NCBI GenBank assembly: GCA_946536145.1 | Contig: CAMNEA010000008.1 | Location: forward strand, 1-64,000 | Length of the DNA: 64,000 nt | Origin: an uncultured Butyrivibrio sp. | GTDB taxonomy: Bacteria; Bacillota; Clostridia; Lachnospirales; Lachnospiraceae | Direction: 5' to 3' | Shown: one piece after another, positions 145 to 6,794 of the stretch | Layout of the letters: each line of letters begins with the position of its first letter | Position numbering within the stretch: the first letter of the stretch is position 1 | The notes under the pieces: model-generated | Told to the model about the DNA's origin: nothing | What the model saw: only the letters and a program-made list of their open reading frames with translations | The model's database searches: none | Made by a program: the position numbers and the translations under genes

Positions 145-217
145 GCGATAGTAGCTTAGTTGGTAAAGCGCCACCTTGCCAAGGTGGAGACCGCGGGTTC
201 GAGCCCCGTCTATCGCT
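145..217 (+). tRNA. tRNA-Gly (anticodon GCC), copy 1
   Basis: This 73-base cloverleaf has acceptor stem GCGATAG/CTATCGC, discriminator T217, a TTCGAGC T-loop and an anticodon loop TTGCCAA flanked by CCACC/GGTGG, which gives anticodon GCC (glycine). CCA is not encoded. The 3' half of the gene is the attachment site of the element that follows; integration left the tRNA sequence complete. An identical gene lies at 18540-18612. Confidence 0.95.
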
Positions 218-219
218 CT
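195..219 (+). repeat. attL core: tRNA-Gly 3' end
   Basis: These 25 bases, from the T-arm to just past the tRNA end, recur exactly at 6770-6794, where no tRNA is present. An integrase gene lies immediately inside, so this is the left attachment-site core of an integrated element. Confidence 0.85.
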
Positions 220-224
220 AGTTA

Positions 225-257
225 AACCCCAGATTTTATCTGGGGTTTTTCTTTTTT
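225..257 (+). terminator. Rho-independent terminator after tRNA-Gly copy 1
   Basis: The arms AACCCCAGA (225-233) and TCTGGGGTT (239-247) are followed by a T-rich run to 257. The terminator is carried by the integrated element, so it replaces the original tRNA terminator now found at 6804-6827. Confidence 0.85.
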
Positions 258-260
258 CTA

Positions 261-302
261 TTGATTACCCACAGGGCTTTTTTGATTACCCTATTGATTA
301 CT
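261..302. repeat. TTGATTACC direct repeats at the left end (putative integrase arm sites)
   Basis: There are three copies: 261-269, 282-290 and 294-302 (the last ends in T). They lie between the attL core and the integrase gene. Two similar copies lie inside the right end at 6688-6708. Short direct repeats inside both ends fit the arm-type binding sites of tyrosine recombinases. Confidence 0.6.
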
Positions 303-325
303 ATATTCAAGGGAATATCATTTGA

Positions 326-1195
326 CTAAAATGCCTCTAAGACTTCTTTTGCTTTTTCAAGATCAAGACCTGTATAGTAGTTTTGATTAATGACCGCTGG
401 CGTATTACCAAATAATTTGGATGCCATTAGAATATTTCCATTGCTTTGATTGATTACCTGGGTAATCGCATTTCTCCTGAAAGCATGAGTTCCACGGACA
501 ATATCTGAACGAACAGCAATCCCTAACTTTTCACACATTCTTCGATAGAAGTTATATACAGTATTGTTTGAAATGACTTTTGTTTCGGTAGGAGCAGGAA
601 ACAAATATTCACTCTTGATTCCATATGCTTTATGAATCATGCGTAGCCTTTTAAGAAATTCGGATACATCTGTCGTAATAGGATAATGGCGATCTTTCCA
701 TGTTTTTGTATGTGAGACAATAGCATCATATTCAGGTTCTTTAGCTGTCTTTTGTACAGTTATCTGTTCACGGTGAATATCCATATATCCATCATGAAAG
801 TCTCCCCACATAAGTGGTGGTACCTCTCCACGCCTTAATCCACACATAATCTGTAACTCCAATGCATAAGCAGGAAAATAATCTGGTTTCTTTTTCTGCT
901 TTTCTACAATAAAGTTATGTATCTCTTTCATCTCCTGATCAGTATAACCACGCTCCTCTGTCACACTATCGGGCTCTATCATATCATTAAACTGTCCCCT
1001 CCCTTCTGTCCGACCTACAATATTAATATGGTAATATCCATCCGAAGATGGTTTGTCTGGGAATTTGTATTTTCTGAGAATAATTTCTTTTTCCATTGAA
1101 GTATACAAATTCCGCGCATCCTCAAGGGATAGTGTACCACTTGCTGAGAATGAGCTCAATAATGATGCACTTACATTGGTGATTTCATTGGACAT
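326..1195 (-). CDS. Tyrosine recombinase (integrase), probably internally shortened
   Basis: Site-specific recombinase of the phage integrase family, 289 residues. It should catalyse integration and excision of the element at the tRNA-Gly 3' end. The catalytic domain covers about residues 83-289: Arg121 in CGLRRGE, Lys164 in HTKTWKD, His237 and Arg240 in THAFRR, and the nucleophile Tyr273 or Tyr274 in QNYY. The usual second His/Trp position is Asn264 (LFGNTP). The first 60 or so residues resemble an arm-DNA-binding domain (DGYYHINI), but the roughly 100-residue core-binding domain expected between it and the catalytic part seems to be missing. No clear ribosome binding site precedes the ATG at 1195. 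Family is certain; activity is doubtful. Confidence 0.85.
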   Translation of the reverse strand: MSNEITNVSASLLSSFSASGTLSLEDARNLYTSMEKEIILRKYKFPDKPSSDGYYHINIVGRTEGRGQFNDMIEPDSVTEERGYTDQEMKEIHNFIVEKQKKKPDYFPAYALELQIMCGLRRGEVPPLMWGDFHDGYMDIHREQITVQKTAKEPEYDAIVSHTKTWKDRHYPITTDVSEFLKRLRMIHKAYGIKSEYLFPAPTETKVISNNTVYNFYRRMCEKLGIAVRSDIVRGTHAFRRNAITQVINQSNGNILMASKLFGNTPAVINQNYYTGLDLEKAKEVLEAF

Positions 1196-1493
1196 AAGCT
1201 AAATACTGCGAAATCAGCGCATATTGGCCTTATATCCTCGTCTAAATCCCGCTTTTCTCCTTATACTAATTATGTATTCTTTGATCTTTATGCTTCTCCT
1301 ATATATAGGGGGTTATGCGGGGGGATAATTCGGGAAAAAAGTAAAAAATATAAATTCTGAAATGAAAATATCGTTATGCTACTATTTGGATAAAAGCAAA
1401 CGACGTATCCTACTATATAAAACTTTCATTTATTAAGATATTGAAAAATGTTATAATGTCCTTGAAAGGTTAACAGTACGAGGAGGATTTGAT
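1196..1493. promoter_or_regulatory. Intergenic region with toxin-antitoxin promoter
   Basis: This AT-rich region separates the integrase from the toxin-antitoxin genes. An extended -10 element, TG-T-TATAAT, lies at 1449-1457, about 36 bases before the antitoxin start; the -35 region is weak. Otherwise nothing was recognised. Confidence 0.45.
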
Positions 1494-1694
1494 ATGAGTA
1501 CAGCTAAAGAGCTCATTATAGATAGAATAAACAGCATGCCTGATGATATTGATGAAATGCAGGTTCTGGACAGATTGTACATGCTTTCAAGATTGGAGCA
1601 CAGCAGAAAGCGCTGTGAAACAGAGGGTACAATAAAAGATTCAGATCTTGATGAGCATTTCAGGGAGAAGAGAAAACAGTATGCTGCATTATGA
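1494..1694 (+). CDS. Antitoxin of a ParE/RelE-type module
   Basis: A 66-residue acidic protein directly upstream of, and overlapping, a ParE/RelE-like toxin. Its sequence (start MSTAKELIIDRINSMPDD) fits a small helical antitoxin of the kind that combines an N-terminal dimerising segment with a C-terminal toxin-binding tail (DLDEHFREKRKQ). The start has a good ribosome binding site (GAGGAGG ending 8 bases upstream). Its last 14 bases overlap the toxin start, as usual for translationally coupled modules. The identification rests mainly on its partner; no antitoxin family is recognised with certainty. Confidence 0.7.
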   Translation: MSTAKELIIDRINSMPDDIDEMQVLDRLYMLSRLEHSRKRCETEGTIKDSDLDEHFREKRKQYAAL

Positions 1695-1998
1695 GTTGGA
1701 ATGGTCTCCAGATGCCCTGGAGGATTTGGATGAGATTTGGGACACCATAGCATGGGATGCTGATCCGGATATGGCAGATTCCTTTATTGATCAGCTGCGT
1801 GAAGTAGCAAGGGGCATCTGTGGAAACAGCAAGAAGGGCAGGATAATACCCGAGCTGGGACTTGAGGCATTCAGAGAGGTTTATTATAAGGGATTCACGA
1901 TAGTGTACGAGATAACAGAGGAAACTATTCTTGTGCATGAAGTGTTTAATCAGAAAAGGATTTACATAAGGTCATATCCAAGAAAGAAAAGAGAATAG
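1681..1998 (+). CDS. ParE/RelE-family toxin
   Basis: Toxin of a type II toxin-antitoxin module, 105 residues. The start is placed at the ATG at 1681, because the conserved fold begins at MLHYELEWSPDALEDLDEI and an earlier in-frame start would add residues outside the family. RelE/ParE features include the central GRIIPELG, then FREVYYKGFTIVYEI and a C-terminal VHEVFNQKRIYI strand. RelE-like members cut mRNA on ribosomes and ParE-like members poison gyrase; the sequence alone does not decide which applies. It probably stabilises the integrated element. Confidence 0.85.
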   Translation: MLHYELEWSPDALEDLDEIWDTIAWDADPDMADSFIDQLREVARGICGNSKKGRIIPELGLEAFREVYYKGFTIVYEITEETILVHEVFNQKRIYIRSYPRKKRE

Positions 1999-2160
1999 AA
2001 ATATAAAAATGTCTGCTTTACTGCAAAAAGGTGGAGCAGCTTTTGTTTATAGAAATATTGGAGCATCCCAGAAAAAGCACAGAGATGGGAAAAGGGATTT
2101 GGAATAATCCCAAAGAAGCTTTGTAAATAGTGGCTTGGGATAGTGATGGGACAATGAGAA

Positions 2161-2197
2161 GAGGCTGAGGGTAATAGTAGCCCTCAGCCTCCTATTT
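2161..2197 (+). terminator. Hairpin, probable terminator of the toxin-antitoxin operon
   Basis: The perfect arms GAGGCTGAGGG (2161-2171) and CCCTCAGCCTC (2181-2191) are followed by a short T-containing tail. It lies 160 bases after the toxin stop. Confidence 0.5.
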
Positions 2198-2334
2198 GCG
2201 TAAAATTGCCCATTGCGCTTGGCGCTTAACGGCGTCCTGTGCTCGGCGTCTCCGCGTTCGCTCCACCGCCTGCGGCAAGAACGCCTACGCCTATCCGCTC
2301 GTGGGGCAACAAATATTGTTTAGGAGTTGATAGT

Positions 2335-2370
2335 AAGGTCTCATAGTAACAGGCTATGAGACCTTTTCTA
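2335..2370. terminator. Hairpin between convergent genes
   Basis: The perfect 12-bp arms AAGGTCTCATAG (2335-2346) and CTATGAGACCTT (2354-2365) are followed on the + strand by TTCT. It may end + strand transcription before the convergent SH3b gene. Confidence 0.5.
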
Positions 2371-2421
2371 TTGGTATTAAGGTTTGGTTGGCTTGAGCAT
2401 ATTATTATATTGATGTTTGTT

Positions 2422-3312
2422 TTATTCGGCTTCTGGACACCATGCTGTACTACAATCTCCATATCCTGAAGAATATGTTAACCCTTCTACACAATCACAA
2501 TAACCCTCACAATCTCCATAATCACAATCTGCTACACAATCACTTGGTGTGGTTGGCTGTGCTTGCTCTTGTGGTTGCTGTTGAGATTGCTGCTGGGATG
2601 ATTGGGATGATTGATATGATTGAGATGATTGTGATGATTGATATGATTTACTACTATTACCACTATCTGAGGTTTTGGATTTAGCTTGGGCTGTTACTTT
2701 AGTTGTTGATAATAAACTACCAGCTACCATCTTATGCCCTTCATCTTCTGACTTTAATACATACCACACTTTTCCATTGTCTGCTGTTACTTTTCCATTG
2801 ACTGTTACTTCTTCATTCAGTGACAGACTCCCAACCTTATCATAGTCAGTAGAAGGACCCTTGCGAACATTGCAGTCCTGTTTAGCGTACATAATAGTAT
2901 CATCAATTTTCTCTATTTCATAATCAAGTGCAGGTGTCTCTGGCTCTGTATCCTCAACAACAGCTTCTTCAGATTCGACTACCTCATTAATAGTTTCATT
3001 TTCTGGTTCTTCATCTTCACCAAGGTCATTGCTTTCTGCATTATTCACATCATTATCTGTTGTACCTTCTGTCTGGGATACAGCAATCTCGGATTTGGAA
3101 TTATCCTGTTCTTCTACAGCTACATCTTTTTCTGCTACAGATGATATATCTGTAACAGATTCTTCTGTGGTCGATGAAATATTATCCTCAACATTTACTG
3201 CTGCGGATTGGATTTCGTTCTTTTTGTTGGCATTATAACCTTTGACAGAAGCAATTGTGAGTGTCAGCGCAACGGTTATTCCTAATACGGCAATAATCTC
3301 TCTCCTTTTCAT
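2422..3312 (-). CDS. Secreted SH3b-domain protein with cysteine-rich C-terminal tail
   Basis: 296 residues, not matched to a known named protein. Residues 1-24 form a signal peptide or membrane anchor. Residues 35-135 are acidic and of low complexity. Residues 140-205 are a bacterial SH3 domain (CNVRKGPSTDYDKVGSL), commonly a cell-wall ligand. Residues 215-255 are a Ser/Gln-rich linker. The last 40 residues carry seven cysteines at 259, 263, 268, 272, 274, 287 and 292, mostly preceded by Asp (ADC, GDC, CDC). The ribosome binding site GAGAGG precedes the ATG. Without the IS upstream, the radical SAM/SPASM gene would end less than 200 bases before it on the same strand. The tail could therefore be a modification substrate, a metal site or a disulfide-bonded module; this is not established. 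Confidence 0.75.
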   Translation of the reverse strand: MKRREIIAVLGITVALTLTIASVKGYNANKKNEIQSAAVNVEDNISSTTEESVTDISSVAEKDVAVEEQDNSKSEIAVSQTEGTTDNDVNNAESNDLGEDEEPENETINEVVESEEAVVEDTEPETPALDYEIEKIDDTIMYAKQDCNVRKGPSTDYDKVGSLSLNEEVTVNGKVTADNGKVWYVLKSEDEGHKMVAGSLLSTTKVTAQAKSKTSDSGNSSKSYQSSQSSQSYQSSQSSQQQSQQQPQEQAQPTTPSDCVADCDYGDCEGYCDCVEGLTYSSGYGDCSTAWCPEAE

Positions 3313-3428
3313 AGTAAGCCTCTCATAAATATACTAGCTATAATATCTGTAATGATTTTACTCTGATTCTTTTTGTTTATAATACTATTGGATTTTTGTG
3401 TGTTGTTCTTTTTTCTTTCTATTTCTAT

Positions 3429-3441
3429 TTTACTACCTTTT
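3429..3441. repeat. 13-bp direct repeat, left flank of the IS
   Basis: TTTACTACCTTTT occurs here and at 5208-5220, on either side of the transposase segment, and looks like a target-site duplication. Confidence 0.6.
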
Positions 3442-5207
3442 TAGGTAATTGCGAAACTCGCTTTGCTCGTTCGCAATCTTGAATTTAAACAAGGAAGAAT
3501 TCATGCAGAGCATGAATTCTTTGATGCAAAAATGTGAATTAGCAATTTTGGCGCACTTTAATAAGCATATGGCTTAATGAAGTTGGTAAGTCCTACGCGA
3601 TTAGCGGTTTTACACTGCGGATATACTCATGATGTTTGATTTTGTCAGCTAGAACGACGGTGATGAGCTGAGTGATACCTGCAAGAATTAGATCAGCATG
3701 CAATGTTTTTTCATTTTGTGTGCGACGCCCTGCAAGACAGAGATTCTCTTTCATGTGGTTGATATCTCTTTCAACGACGGTTCTGATTTTATAGGTGTTA
3801 TCCCATTCTTCAGTACCGCGCAGTATCCCTGGATATGCACGTAGATTCTTTTCGGGATAGATATATATCATACGGCCGCAAGGAGAATTAGTGCAGGGAT
3901 TTTTACATTGACACTCACGAAGAGATTTGCCAGTAGATTTATTGTAAACACGTTTGATTTTGGGACAGACAAATTTATATCTTACTAAACCATTGTTCCT
4001 TGAAGATTTGCCATCGGATTTCATTGGGAGTGAATCATCTTTAGGACAACATGGAATGCCATCTGAGTTGACCTTGCAATCGGGATATTTGATGCTTCCT
4101 CTATTGGCTAGAGGGATATACGCTTTTGAAAAATGCTTATCTGATCCGAAGGTATCCCCTGTAAGCAGCTGTTTATACAAAAGAGCTGAATCAAAAGCGG
4201 AATCACCTAGAAATGTTTTGGGATTGATAAGTGGGTGCATTGAAAAGAAGTCCTGTAGTGTGGGAATGAGAAGTTTTGCGTCATGAACGCATTTATCTTC
4301 ATCAGGTGAATCAGACTTCTTTTCGACAACAATATCCGGGTGAGATGTAAAAAAGTCTTTGTTGTAGAAAGAAATGTGGCGAACAATTCCTAGGCCATTT
4401 GTTACAATGCCAAACTTGAAAACGTAGCAGAAATGGCCGTTGATATATAGCTGTTTGATTTCAGGATTGGCAGAAGCATGAGAAGGCATTGCTCCATAGG
4501 CTGACTTATAGGGATCATAGGATTTATCAAAGCCCATTGCTTTGGCATATGCCTTAAGTTGTTTGATTATCTTGTTTGCATACTTAGGATTATTTTCAGC
4601 AACAAAAGCTTCAATACCAGAGGAATCAAAAATGGTCATGTTAGCTTTGTCAGTGTTAATGGCCTGACAGATAGGTTCGGTAATATCAACGAGCTTGTCA
4701 AAAATCAGTTGTAAGTCATCCACAAAATTTTGCTTAAAGCGGGTTATTTTAGAGGCATCAGGAACTTTGGTAAAACCACAGAATTCACGAAGTGGCTTGG
4801 AGTATGAAAGAAACACCAGTAGAAGCTGATCTGTGGGGATGCTAAAAACGCGTTGGATGATTAAAGCCCAGAGCATGGCTTTTAATGGGTATTTACGGGA
4901 TCTTCCCGTTGATGCATAGAAATGCTTTATAAAAGAGAGCGGAATAATTTCATCAAGGTCGATATTGGTTTCTAATAGAGACAGAAACGCGGGCTTGTCA
5001 TTTTCAAATTTATCCTGACAGTCTGCATAGATATCAGCCAAAGAAAGCTGTTTATATGGTATCATATATATCAGAATAACTCCTTTCTTAGTGTTGGTCA
5101 GTGGTTTCTCGTCAATTCTATTGTACCATATCTAGTGAGGGGTTATTCATTTTTTATGAAGCAAAAACGCCGTATTTATGCGGCTTTCGGCGTTTTGCAA
5201 ACGCCTA
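3442..5207 (-). mobile_element. Insertion sequence, about 1.77 kb
   Basis: A single DDE transposase gene is flanked by 13-bp direct repeats (3429-3441 and 5208-5220). The inner ends form an imperfect terminal inverted repeat: left TAGGTAATTGCGAAACTC, right (complement) TAGGCGTTTGCAAAACGC, with 13 of 18 positions matching. Subterminal hairpins lie at 3448-3478 (ATTGCGAA/TTCGCAAT), 3498-3520 (palindrome around GAATTCATGC) and about 5167-5197. The ends are inferred from these repeats and could be a few bases off. It separates the SH3b gene from the radical SAM gene. Confidence 0.7.
3593..5065 (-). CDS. DDE transposase
   Basis: Transposase of 490 residues, apparently full length. The N-terminal part (about 40-115) resembles the DUF772-type domain of IS5/IS1182-like transposases (LREFCGFTKVPDASKITRF). 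The putative catalytic triad is Asp147 (TIFDSSGIEA), Asp288 (FLGDSAFDS) and Glu432 (RTVVERDINHMKE). A cysteine-rich insert (CPKIKR through CQCKNPCTNSPCG, about 367-397) precedes the last catalytic residue and may bind zinc. The exact IS family is not certain. The reading frame is intact, so the IS may be active. Confidence 0.85.
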   Translation of the reverse strand: MIPYKQLSLADIYADCQDKFENDKPAFLSLLETNIDLDEIIPLSFIKHFYASTGRSRKYPLKAMLWALIIQRVFSIPTDQLLLVFLSYSKPLREFCGFTKVPDASKITRFKQNFVDDLQLIFDKLVDITEPICQAINTDKANMTIFDSSGIEAFVAENNPKYANKIIKQLKAYAKAMGFDKSYDPYKSAYGAMPSHASANPEIKQLYINGHFCYVFKFGIVTNGLGIVRHISFYNKDFFTSHPDIVVEKKSDSPDEDKCVHDAKLLIPTLQDFFSMHPLINPKTFLGDSAFDSALLYKQLLTGDTFGSDKHFSKAYIPLANRGSIKYPDCKVNSDGIPCCPKDDSLPMKSDGKSSRNNGLVRYKFVCPKIKRVYNKSTGKSLRECQCKNPCTNSPCGRMIYIYPEKNLRAYPGILRGTEEWDNTYKIRTVVERDINHMKENLCLAGRRTQNEKTLHADLILAGITQLITVVLADKIKHHEYIRSVKPLIA

Positions 5208-5220
5208 TTTACTACCTTTT
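5208..5220. repeat. 13-bp direct repeat, right flank of the IS
   Basis: Second copy of TTTACTACCTTTT; see 3429-3441. Confidence 0.6.
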
Positions 5221-5258
5221 ATATTGGAGTGCTATTGTGATTGATAAATTGAATATTC

Positions 5259-6527
5259 TTATTCATTTTGATGTTTTATTGATTGATTTCTATTTGATAT
5301 TAATTTAAGAAGTTGTTGCTTGGTGGCTTCAATTCGTTTATCTTTTTGGCAATCTATGTTATCTATAAATCTCTGAGATGTACAATACCCGAAACAAAGT
5401 GGTAAAATTGGACATTCTTTACAATCATCTATAATTCTACTATTATCCCAAAGTGTTCCATTTCTATTAATAATTGATGATTGATCTTTAATATTTCCTA
5501 CAATGTATTTCTTCTGACCTACTAAATGCTCACATATATAAATATCACCTTTAGTATCTATTACATAGTAATCTGGATGACGTGCCTCGCACCCATAACG
5601 TCTTCTTAATGGAATTACTGCATCCTTTAATAATATATCTTTTATTTTATGAAATTCATCATACGATATATTATTTTCAGAATTGATTATAGTCGTATTC
5701 TGTGGTGCTATACTTATTGTATTAAAACTAGACTTTATTTTATAATCATTTCTAATCAATTTTACTAATTGTAATATATCTGATTTACTTGCTTCAGATA
5801 TATTGATATGAATTGTTATTTTTAATATATCCTCTACGTCTTTGATATTTTGAATTGTTTTATAAAAGTCATCCTCAGTACAGTTCTTTAATTTGGCATA
5901 GGTTGGTGCTAAACCATCCAGAGGGATTACTACTTCATCCGTAACATGAAGTGATTTTAATTCCTCTGCTATTTCTTTTGTTAATAATCTTCCATTTGTA
6001 TACATCCTTGCATTAAATTCTATATTATTGATGATGAGTGCGTTTGAAATATATCTTATAATGTCCATATTAAGTAATGGCTCGCCACCAAACCATTTTA
6101 TTTTTAATGGTTTGGTGAATTTATGGTCTACATATCTGCGCTTTATGAATGCTATGATTTCATCTGCTGTTTCTTTTGTCATGTGCTCTGTTTGACAGAG
6201 CTGGTCTTTTTCAAAACAATAAACACATCTATAATTACACGCTAATGTTGTAAATATTGATAAGAACATGAAATCTGCTTTCTCTGCATGTGCTTTAGCA
6301 TCATCTTTTAATCGCTGGATTTCATCTAATGTATTTGGTACTATGAAACCTTCATTTGCAAGATATACTGGTACATCACCTATGTCTATTGATTGTTTGT
6401 CTTGTATATCATCTAGTTCTGAGTTGTCTATCCATCTATAATTTAAGGTGTAGGTGTTGTATATTAAGACTTTATCTTCTGTTTGGTCTGCTATGATGTT
6501 GAATTGGCTGTATTTATAGAGTTGCAT
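5259..6527 (-). CDS. Radical SAM/SPASM protein
   Basis: Radical S-adenosylmethionine enzyme, 422 residues. The 4Fe-4S motif is CNYRCVYC (Cys97, Cys101, Cys104). A C-terminal SPASM domain with auxiliary cluster cysteines follows: GCEARH, YICEHLVG, a CKECPILPLCFGYC block and a final Cys near NIDCQKD. The first 90 residues form a separate domain of the kind that binds a peptide substrate in SPASM peptide maturases. Such enzymes make thioether or C-C links in ribosomal peptides or mature sulfatases. No sulfatase gene and no small precursor peptide was seen nearby. The closest cysteine-rich candidate is the tail of the SH3b protein on the same strand, now cut off by the IS. Start ATG with AAGGGATTT upstream. 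Confidence 0.85.
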   Translation of the reverse strand: MQLYKYSQFNIIADQTEDKVLIYNTYTLNYRWIDNSELDDIQDKQSIDIGDVPVYLANEGFIVPNTLDEIQRLKDDAKAHAEKADFMFLSIFTTLACNYRCVYCFEKDQLCQTEHMTKETADEIIAFIKRRYVDHKFTKPLKIKWFGGEPLLNMDIIRYISNALIINNIEFNARMYTNGRLLTKEIAEELKSLHVTDEVVIPLDGLAPTYAKLKNCTEDDFYKTIQNIKDVEDILKITIHINISEASKSDILQLVKLIRNDYKIKSSFNTISIAPQNTTIINSENNISYDEFHKIKDILLKDAVIPLRRRYGCEARHPDYYVIDTKGDIYICEHLVGQKKYIVGNIKDQSSIINRNGTLWDNSRIIDDCKECPILPLCFGYCTSQRFIDNIDCQKDKRIEATKQQLLKLISNRNQSIKHQNE

Positions 6528-6769
6528 GGTAAATCCCTTTATTAATTATGAAGGGCATCTGATTATGACAGAACAGATGCCCTTAATTAGCTTCTCAATA
6601 CTATGATAGCATACAGTGATTCTTTACAACATCAGGAGCTTTATCTGTAGTATTCACAAAAACCACCATAGTAATGGTAGATGAAGATTGATTACCTATA
6701 TGATTACCCTGTGGATGCGAAGATGCGCGGAGTCTCCTTTCTTCGCGTGATTGAGCGATTATTTGGAAT
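6528..6769. other. Right end of the integrated element, non-coding
   Basis: This holds a perfect inverted repeat at 6551-6561 and 6574-6584 (AAGGGCATCTG/CAGATGCCCTT) just upstream of the radical SAM gene, which could be an operator or a terminator, and two TTGATTACC-like repeats at 6688-6696 and 6700-6708. No gene was recognised. Confidence 0.6.
6688..6708. repeat. Arm-site-like repeats at the right end
   Basis: TTGATTACC at 6688-6696 and ATGATTACC at 6700-6708 are similar to the three copies at 261-302. Confidence 0.55.
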
Positions 6770-6794
6770 GGGTTCGAGCCCCGTCTATCGCTCT
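6770..6794 (+). repeat. attR core: duplicated tRNA-Gly 3' end
   Basis: An exact 25-bp copy of 195-219. The D-arm and anticodon arm are absent, so this is not a tRNA gene but the distal attachment site of the element. Confidence 0.85.

Follow-up and report, generated by a model that had tools for sequence, protein, structure and literature searches.

A SPASM radical SAM enzyme of gut and rumen bacteria is paired with SH3b surface proteins bearing cysteine-rich tails

Introduction

Peptide-stapling radical SAM enzymes are known mostly from small free peptides. The locus described here raises the question of whether such an enzyme may serve the C-terminal tail of a secreted protein. The window, a stretch of 64,000 nucleotides from an uncultured Butyrivibrio sp. 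(GCA_946536145.1, contig CAMNEA010000008.1), encodes a radical SAM enzyme of the SPASM type and an SH3b protein that carries a signal sequence and a Cys-rich tail. The original prediction, made from the letters of the window, was that the two form a modification pair with thioethers in the tail. It named as signs against the pair that related enzymes never stand next to Cys-tail proteins, or consistently stand next to a sulfatase or a separate small precursor.

Results

The pair in the window

Both genes are intact and lie on the minus strand (Table 1), as predicted. The IS sits between the enzyme gene and the tail gene, and the present gap is 1946 nt. Without the IS and one copy of the 13-nt repeat the gap is 167 nt, in agreement with the predicted distance of under 200 bases, provided that the repeat arose by target duplication.

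Table 1. Features of the island and of the enzyme/tail pair (positions in the window)
Feature	Position	Strand	Evidence
tRNA-Gly (gcc), left end of the island	145..218	+	
att repeat, left, 25 nt, 3′ end of tRNA-Gly	195..219	.	
Tyrosine integrase (Phage_integrase), 289 aa	326..1195	-	Pfam
Probable toxin-antitoxin pair: ParE-like toxin gene (1648-1998) and preceding small ORF (1494-1694)	1494..1998	+	
Candidate substrate: secreted SH3b protein, 296 aa, Cys-rich tail at the C terminus	2422..3312	-	Intact ORF, Pfam, model
Cys-rich tail, residues 257-296, seven Cys, ending in CPEAE	2425..2544	-	
SH3b domain, residues 133-206	2695..2916	-	Pfam, fold model, structure search
Signal sequence, residues 1-24, no lipobox Cys	3241..3312	-	
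13-nt direct repeat, left, likely IS target duplication	3429..3441	.	
IS1182-like transposase	3593..5065	-	Profile matches
13-nt direct repeat, right, likely IS target duplication	5208..5220	.	
SPASM radical SAM enzyme, 422 aa, candidate tail maturase	5259..6527	-	Intact ORF, profile matches, alignment, tree
SPASM cysteines C313, C332, C369, C372, C378, C382, C393	5349..5591	-	Invariant in 8-row alignment
Radical SAM CX3CX2C motif (C97, C101, C104)	6216..6239	-	Invariant in alignment
N-terminal domain, residues 1-81, strands and helices, putatively RRE-like	6285..6527	-	AF2 secondary structure
att repeat, right, identical 25 nt	6770..6794	.	

The SH3b protein consists of a signal sequence, an acidic linker, the SH3b domain, a Ser/Gln-rich linker and the tail. 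The SH3_3 match reaches 28.6 bits (cut-off 27). Residues 131-200 are modeled as a high-confidence fold (block means 92-97), and the domain resembles wall-binding SH3b domains, for example that of lysostaphin (E 0.001-0.002). Outside the domain the model is not good, and the tail is predicted to be unordered. The final 38 residues hold the expected seven cysteines; by chance at least seven would occur with a probability of 1e-7 to 1e-5 (simple binomial, 1-2% Cys). Five of them follow Asp, in line with the prediction, one follows Tyr and one Trp. The spacings are X3, X4, X3, X1, X12 and X4, hence the proposed Cys-X3/4 rhythm describes four of the six and fails at X1 and X12. A lipobox-like motif is found in 10 of 11 tail proteins, counted with both G511 proteins, without the G510 fragment and with one of several possible starts for G512; the exception is the window copy. 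Four tail proteins compared with NCBIfam gave no model at E up to 0.001.

The enzyme and its nearest families

The window enzyme scores 62 bits with Radical_SAM of Pfam and 55.9 bits with TIGR04085, a model of the SPASM domain (cut-off 27). Its score with the Pfam SPASM model is slightly under the cut-off (19.4 versus 21.5), and a whole-genome search with this model returned two other places and not the window enzyme gene. The protein carries the CX3CX2C motif and the complete SPASM cysteine set, which we take to be CX9-15GX4C-CX2CX5CX3C-C; G327 is also invariant in the eight aligned enzymes.

The NCBIfam models that score best describe enzymes maturing Cys-rich or thioether peptides, every family-level score being far under its curated cut-off. 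The closest are TIGR04463 (146.6 bits, cut-off 525) and CefB of the CefA/CefB system (NF038108/NF038107; 143.3 bits, cut-off 600), followed by the geopeptide model (134 bits), the PapB model NF047865 (107, cut-off 340) and the Clo7bot model (106 bits). The SCIFF maturase model TIGR03974 (71.4, cut-off 425), DynA (a weak match of 64 bits), the anaerobic sulfatase maturase (anSME) model TIGR03942 (62, cut-off 349) and QhpD (52, cut-off 453) score lower. A role as sulfatase maturase was dropped, since its score is far under the cut-off; no sulfatase was present among the subset of neighbouring proteins given to Pfam. Membership in an anti-phage defence family was dropped as well, as the only matches there were to viperin-like radical SAM proteins.

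In a PDB sequence search 5WGG and 5WHY come first, a protein that is presumably CteB; the title of 5WHY is ‘Structural Insights into Thioether Bond Formation’. TigE (8VPO) and, in second place, 5WHY are also on top in a structure search based on the AF2 model of the enzyme, a model that is poor overall (mean pLDDT 57, SPASM part missing). Residues 1-70 have block means of 64-82, with predicted strands at 3-6, 10-15, 19-24 and 29-34 and predicted helices at 35-41, 54-58 and 69-81. This make-up of the N-terminal 81 residues is as would be expected for a RiPP recognition element (RRE).

The pairing is conserved and specific

Enzyme homologues occur in 16 of 397 genomes of the family sample at E up to 1e-20, three of them close (own, G193, G233), and, with the limit at 1e-15, in 8 of 79 genomes of the same genus, of which two have a close one. 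With a stricter limit of 1e-50 they occur in 2 of 37 genomes of the genus of G193, in 3 of 77 of that of G510 and in 1 of 2 of that of G233, and the genome_contigs search gave 9 loci, 6 close. We call an enzyme close when it is at least 57% identical. Once duplicates are collapsed, namely identical copies, shared contigs (G193 and L025) and identical blocks (6962 nt at 100% identity, common to G433, L022, and G513, L023), the close enzymes come from eight genomes. This set is small and contains three close relatives and several MAGs; the genus of G433 is uncertain because this MAG has 8% contamination.

All eight genomes encode SH3b proteins with a Cys tail, 0.07-3.9 kb from the enzyme: two each in G193, G433 and G511, and also in G000, G233, G483, G510 and G512. 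The gaps in the seven relatives are 67, 96, 122, 502, 537, 1811 and 3864 nt. The two genes adjoin in G193, G233, G433, G510 and G511 (67-537 nt), a DUF4379 gene lies between them in G512 (1811 nt), and several genes do so in G483 (3864 nt). The 122 nt in G233 lead to a first enzyme that is 37% identical, and the close enzyme comes after it at 1392 nt. The tail gene stands before the enzyme in six of the seven relatives and after it in the window and G483. G511 carries two copies of the cassette with only a fragment of the enzyme in the first, so that a single enzyme probably serves both tails. The tail protein of G512 has a different, longer sequence as its N-terminal half.

The co-occurrence is exact in the sets of 397 and 79 genomes; in the large sets a few first-look candidates per genome were scored (in the family sample at most 4 for the enzyme and 7 for the full-length tail protein), so that misses are possible. 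The full-length tail profile, with a limit of E 1e-22, hits three of the 397 genomes of the family, namely those with a close enzyme; of the order set (392 genomes) it hits two, which again belong to the close-enzyme genomes. Within the genus it matches 7 of 79 genomes at E up to 1e-12, the whole model being covered only in the two enzyme genomes. In the five other SH3 homologues the match ends at model position 202 or earlier, and the last 60 residues hold 0-3 Cys (one protein is cut by a contig end). With the tail-only profile 4 of 397 genomes are returned, the three enzyme genomes and G210 (E 0.003, internal stop), which we take as noise. Thirteen further genomes of the family have a distant homologue of the enzyme (E 1e-20 to 1e-43) and no tail protein.

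In the enzyme tree the tail-linked enzymes form one clade with support 96/90, and none of 500 shuffles was as low. Hence, the pairing of enzyme and tail protein is not due to chance, and the predicted association is borne out by linkage, co-occurrence and phylogeny.

The next branches, G012 and G403, are without such a tail protein. A free peptide of 40 residues with 8 Cys overlaps the end of the enzyme gene of G012 (L033:1910-2032), and its cysteines do not as a rule follow Asp or an aromatic residue. An SH3b carrier may thus have taken over from a free Cys-rich core or acquired it, a direction that we propose on long outgroup branches. Among small ORFs within 2 kb of the eight clade enzymes (20-150 aa, at least 4 Cys), inspection by eye found no precursor-like one, and many were antisense to annotated-size ORFs; the same scan recovered the peptide of G012. 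A separate small precursor in the tail clade, one of the signs against the pair, was thus dropped.

A small-[Asp/aromatic]-Cys motif in the tails

Motifs were counted in 11 tails: that of the window, two each from G193, G510 and G433, and one each from G233, G511, G512 and G483. One G510 tail is a contig-edge fragment, and the G511 tail is one of two near-identical ones. The strongest signal is the residue before Cys. For the 77 cysteines it is Asp in 48 cases, Tyr, Phe or Trp in 22 and His in 3; these residues precede 73 of 77 tail cysteines versus 218 of 1141 (19%) in other ORFs, a background of all ORFs of at least 200 aa in 11 loci and not of real genes alone. Gly, Ala and Ser are found at position -1 in none of the 77 cases and at -2 in 53. 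In 20000 shuffles, which keep each Cys in place but ignore that the tails are related, neither the Asp count, nor the lack of small residues at -1, nor their excess at -2 was reached even once, and the aromatic count was reached once.

All 11 tails end with Ala-Glu, six of them as Cys-X3-Glu, and [S/A]-Asp-Cys opens 10 of 11. The Asp of this first motif has no tail Cys upstream and is therefore not the acceptor of an earlier tail Cys. The commonest Cys-Cys spacings are 5 (19 of 66) and 4 (15 of 66). The mean pairwise identity is 0.38 for the tails versus 0.52 for the SH3b domain.

Acidic acceptors alone show no clear enrichment in the 11 tails. Cys-X0-6-[DE] is observed for 68 of 77 cysteines versus 64.4 in shuffles, with 43 of 300 as high, and thus is not above composition; C-X3-[DE] is in weak excess (25 of 77 versus 17.4; 7 of 300 as high). 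The PapB rule as the only crosslink code was dropped for this reason. When D, E, Y, F, W, H and N are all allowed, 63 of 77 cysteines can be matched to a residue three or four positions downstream (shuffle mean 50.5, none of 300 as high), partly because of the Cys spacing and the residue-before-Cys rule.

The cassette is often carried by mobile DNA elements

The window cassette lies in a 6.6-kb tRNA-Gly island with an integrase, a ParE-like toxin gene and the enzyme/tail pair with its IS. The island is an integrative element by its integrase and its att repeat of the tRNA 3′ end, and its GC content is 36.5% versus 43.8% at positions 7001-64000. The original prediction had overlooked the island, the missing lipobox Cys of the window copy and its gene order, which differs from that of most relatives. 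The toxin gene matches ParE_toxin with 58.2 bits; for the small ORF before it no antitoxin model matched. In G433/G513 an integrase adjoins tRNA-Pro, and a second att copy was not found on the contig. In G193 an integrase with a Tn916-type DNA-binding domain is encoded 4.8 kb away from the enzyme; in G483 one lies at a distance of 15 kb. Genes that recur among the loci encode a resolvase, an SprT-like protein, a DUF5688 protein and a D12 methylase. In the fetched flanks of G233, G510 and G511 the probes used found no integrase, resolvase or tRNA. A viral origin was dropped: two scans of viral contigs gave no close relative (nothing in one, a single fragment at 42% in the other), and matches in phage and plasmid records were all below 60% identity.

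Discussion

Proposed maturation of the tail

We suggest that the SPASM enzyme is the dedicated maturase of the C-terminal tail of the SH3b surface proteins, and give this reading a probability of about 0.68. Such radical SAM enzymes are cytoplasmic, and if this one is too, modification must precede export. In the first step the freshly made precursor would be bound in the cytoplasm via the RRE-like N-terminal domain of the enzyme. The enzyme would then act at several tail cysteines, most likely forming Cys thioethers to Asp or Glu, and perhaps to the aromatic residues preceding the next Cys; the last tail Cys may pair with the C-terminal Glu. A link from Cys to a residue three or four positions downstream is preferred because PapB uses Cys-X3-Asp/Glu and the repeats of CefA have Asp at +3, although a link may instead join neighbouring residues. 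In the next step the modified precursor would be exported by Sec and anchored as a lipoprotein, whereas the window copy, which lacks the lipobox Cys, would be held by its signal sequence or by the wall. Finally, the SH3b domain would sit on the wall, with the stapled tail still attached at the end of a flexible linker. Several tail proteins could be served by one enzyme. We count against this scheme that the strongest tail signal, the residue before Cys, is unlike the PapB rule. Also against it stand the genes that intervene in G483 and G512, the distant-homologue genomes of the family in which the tail protein is missing, the low family-level scores of the enzyme and the small number of genomes.

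The SH3b lipoprotein might also be a mere carrier whose modified tail is cleaved extracellularly and then acts as a free signalling peptide or bacteriocin. Related maturases do have free Cys-rich precursors next to them, namely ctpM with seven annotated Clo7bot peptides and the sister enzyme of G012 with its 40-residue peptide, and the higher variability of the tails relative to the SH3b domain would fit a released product. SprT-like, metallopeptidase-like genes stand in the flanks of G433, G483 and G512; however, that is three of eight loci, amid mobile-element genes, and no peptidase or exporter is common to all loci in the subset of neighbours given to Pfam. The conserved C-terminal Ala-Glu and the SH3b domain seem to fit a retained module. 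Hence, we consider release of the tail unlikely.

The same doubt attaches to a tail that is modified other than by thioethers. The radical SAM/SPASM superfamily performs formylglycine formation, epimerisation and carbon-carbon linkage, among others, and Cys might be converted to formylglycine, residues epimerised, or a C-C link made at the Asp or aromatic residue before Cys. The strict [G/A/S]-[D/aromatic]-C pattern differs from the known Cys-X3-Asp rule, and there are the weak enzyme matches to anSME and DynA. However, the top-scoring models include thioether-forming maturases such as PapB, the tails hold many cysteines, and the examined neighbours include no sulfatase, which makes such chemistry improbable.

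Least probable is a plain disulfide-rich or metal-binding tail that merely co-travels on mobile elements with an enzyme for another target: several loci are integrative elements with other cargo and disulfides are possible in extracellular Cys-rich tails, but anaerobes seldom depend on many disulfides in the proteins that they secrete, the linkage is also present in G233, G510 and G511 where the probes found no mobile genes in the fetched flanks, the co-occurrence is exact, and no alternative precursor was found within 2 kb.

If the enzyme is indeed the tail maturase, radical SAM stapling chemistry would be used for surface architecture, on the tail of a wall-facing lipoprotein. This would be a natural route to stapled-peptide display on Gram-positive cells, and how crosslinked tails pass the Sec channel would become a testable question. 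The [Asp/aromatic]-Cys motif predicts acceptor residues beyond the PapB rules. A bolder version, which we put forward tentatively, is that the recurring small-[Asp/aromatic]-Cys motifs of a hypervariable lipoprotein tail are sites of permanent stapling by the dedicated enzyme, with Tyr, Trp, Phe and His as new acceptors besides Asp and Glu, in an exchangeable surface module spread and diversified by integrative elements. Such a module could alter, for example, phage, conjugation or host contacts.

Comparison with known systems

No description of the enzyme/SH3b-tail pair was found in open-licence PMC papers; a survey of bacteriocins from the rumen, dated 2026, lists numerous ranthipeptide clusters, and neither ‘SH3’ nor ‘lipoprotein’ occurs in its text (PMC13289728). 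The claim that the tail would be a new kind of substrate was nevertheless too strong. In databases, Methylomagnum CefA is a precedent for a Cys tail on a binding domain; it is encoded beside a TIGR04463 maturase and has 679 aa with lectin and crystallin domains. Its C-terminal repeat has Cys at every fifth residue, and spacing five is also the commonest in the SH3b tails. However, its cysteines follow Ala in 21 of 28 cases, with Asp at +3 in 13 of 28, unlike the Asp or aromatic residue before Cys here; it has lectin domains and belongs to Pseudomonadota, whereas the present proteins are SH3b lipoproteins of a different phylum. Neither the tail of the window protein nor one of the G193 tails matched the CefA model, even with E allowed to reach 10 (control CefA, 60.7 bits).

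PapB is also a SPASM enzyme. According to one report, it natively links Cys-X3-Asp/Glu and did not accept Asp before Cys in a DSANCA peptide (PMC9413430). The PapB/freyrasin system is alike in its several cysteines and acidic acceptors, matched here by the Cys-X3-Glu ends, and differs in that PapA is a free peptide substrate and that aromatics precede Cys in the SH3b tails. QhpD is described as a radical SAM enzyme forming Cys-Asp and Cys-Glu thioethers in a protein and not in a RiPP (PMC8326336). Quinohemoprotein amine dehydrogenase, its system, is another substrate in another place.

The bufferins also temper the claim of novelty. They are reported to be Cys-rich with Sec signals; about 16% of Buf2 are predicted lipoproteins, some precursors are very long, and modification of Sec precursors can come before export (PMC12452194). 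Their enzymes are of the multinuclear iron MNIO family, in contrast to the SPASM enzyme here. Last, TIGR04133 (rSAM_w_lipo) presumably describes a radical SAM/SPASM protein paired with a lipoprotein; among the best 25 families listed it appears for the close G233 enzyme only, with 43.7 bits versus a cut-off of 425.

Duplication and mobility of the cassette

The cassette of G511 was duplicated, with subsequent loss of one enzyme copy. In G233 two enzymes lie in tandem, and they align with the window enzyme at 35% and 57% identity; the accompanying tail protein contains 12 Cys and has the longest tail among those seen. Two goat MAGs from different records share, at 100% identity, a block of 6962 nt that carries the cassette together with tRNA-Pro; this reflects either recent transfer or mis-binning.

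In the window, the tRNA-Gly island encodes a ParE-like toxin and an integrase of 289 aa, from which the N-terminal domain may be absent. To the right of the island a stretch resembling, as judged by eye, a MoxR-type ATPase remnant is found.

Large candidate substrates

CefA of Methylomagnum is a candidate large substrate: its C-terminal repeat holds 28 Cys, and its gene lies next to one for a TIGR04463 maturase and another for a radical SAM C-methyltransferase. The Cys-Cys proteins of loci L032 and L039 are possibly another large-protein substrate type. Short peptides rich in Cys-Cys pairs are also observed at a further locus, L036.

Coordinates of the features discussed
Feature	Location	Details
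Island at tRNA-Gly, 6.6 kb	window 195-6794	exact 25-nt att repeats
Second enzyme-gene copy, remnant (G511)	L116:1440-1721	between two tail genes
Two tandem enzymes (G233)	L031:5989-8578	behind one tail protein
Identical block (goat MAGs)	L022:4857-11818; L117:1-6962
CefA (Methylomagnum)	L123:879-2915	lectin and crystallin domains, C-terminal repeat
Proteins of ~250 aa	L032:7845-8597; L039:4647-5381	N-terminus rich in Cys-Cys pairs; each near distant enzyme homologue
Two similar short peptides	L036:8599-8703; L036:8881-9003	3' of two tandem SPASM-like enzymes
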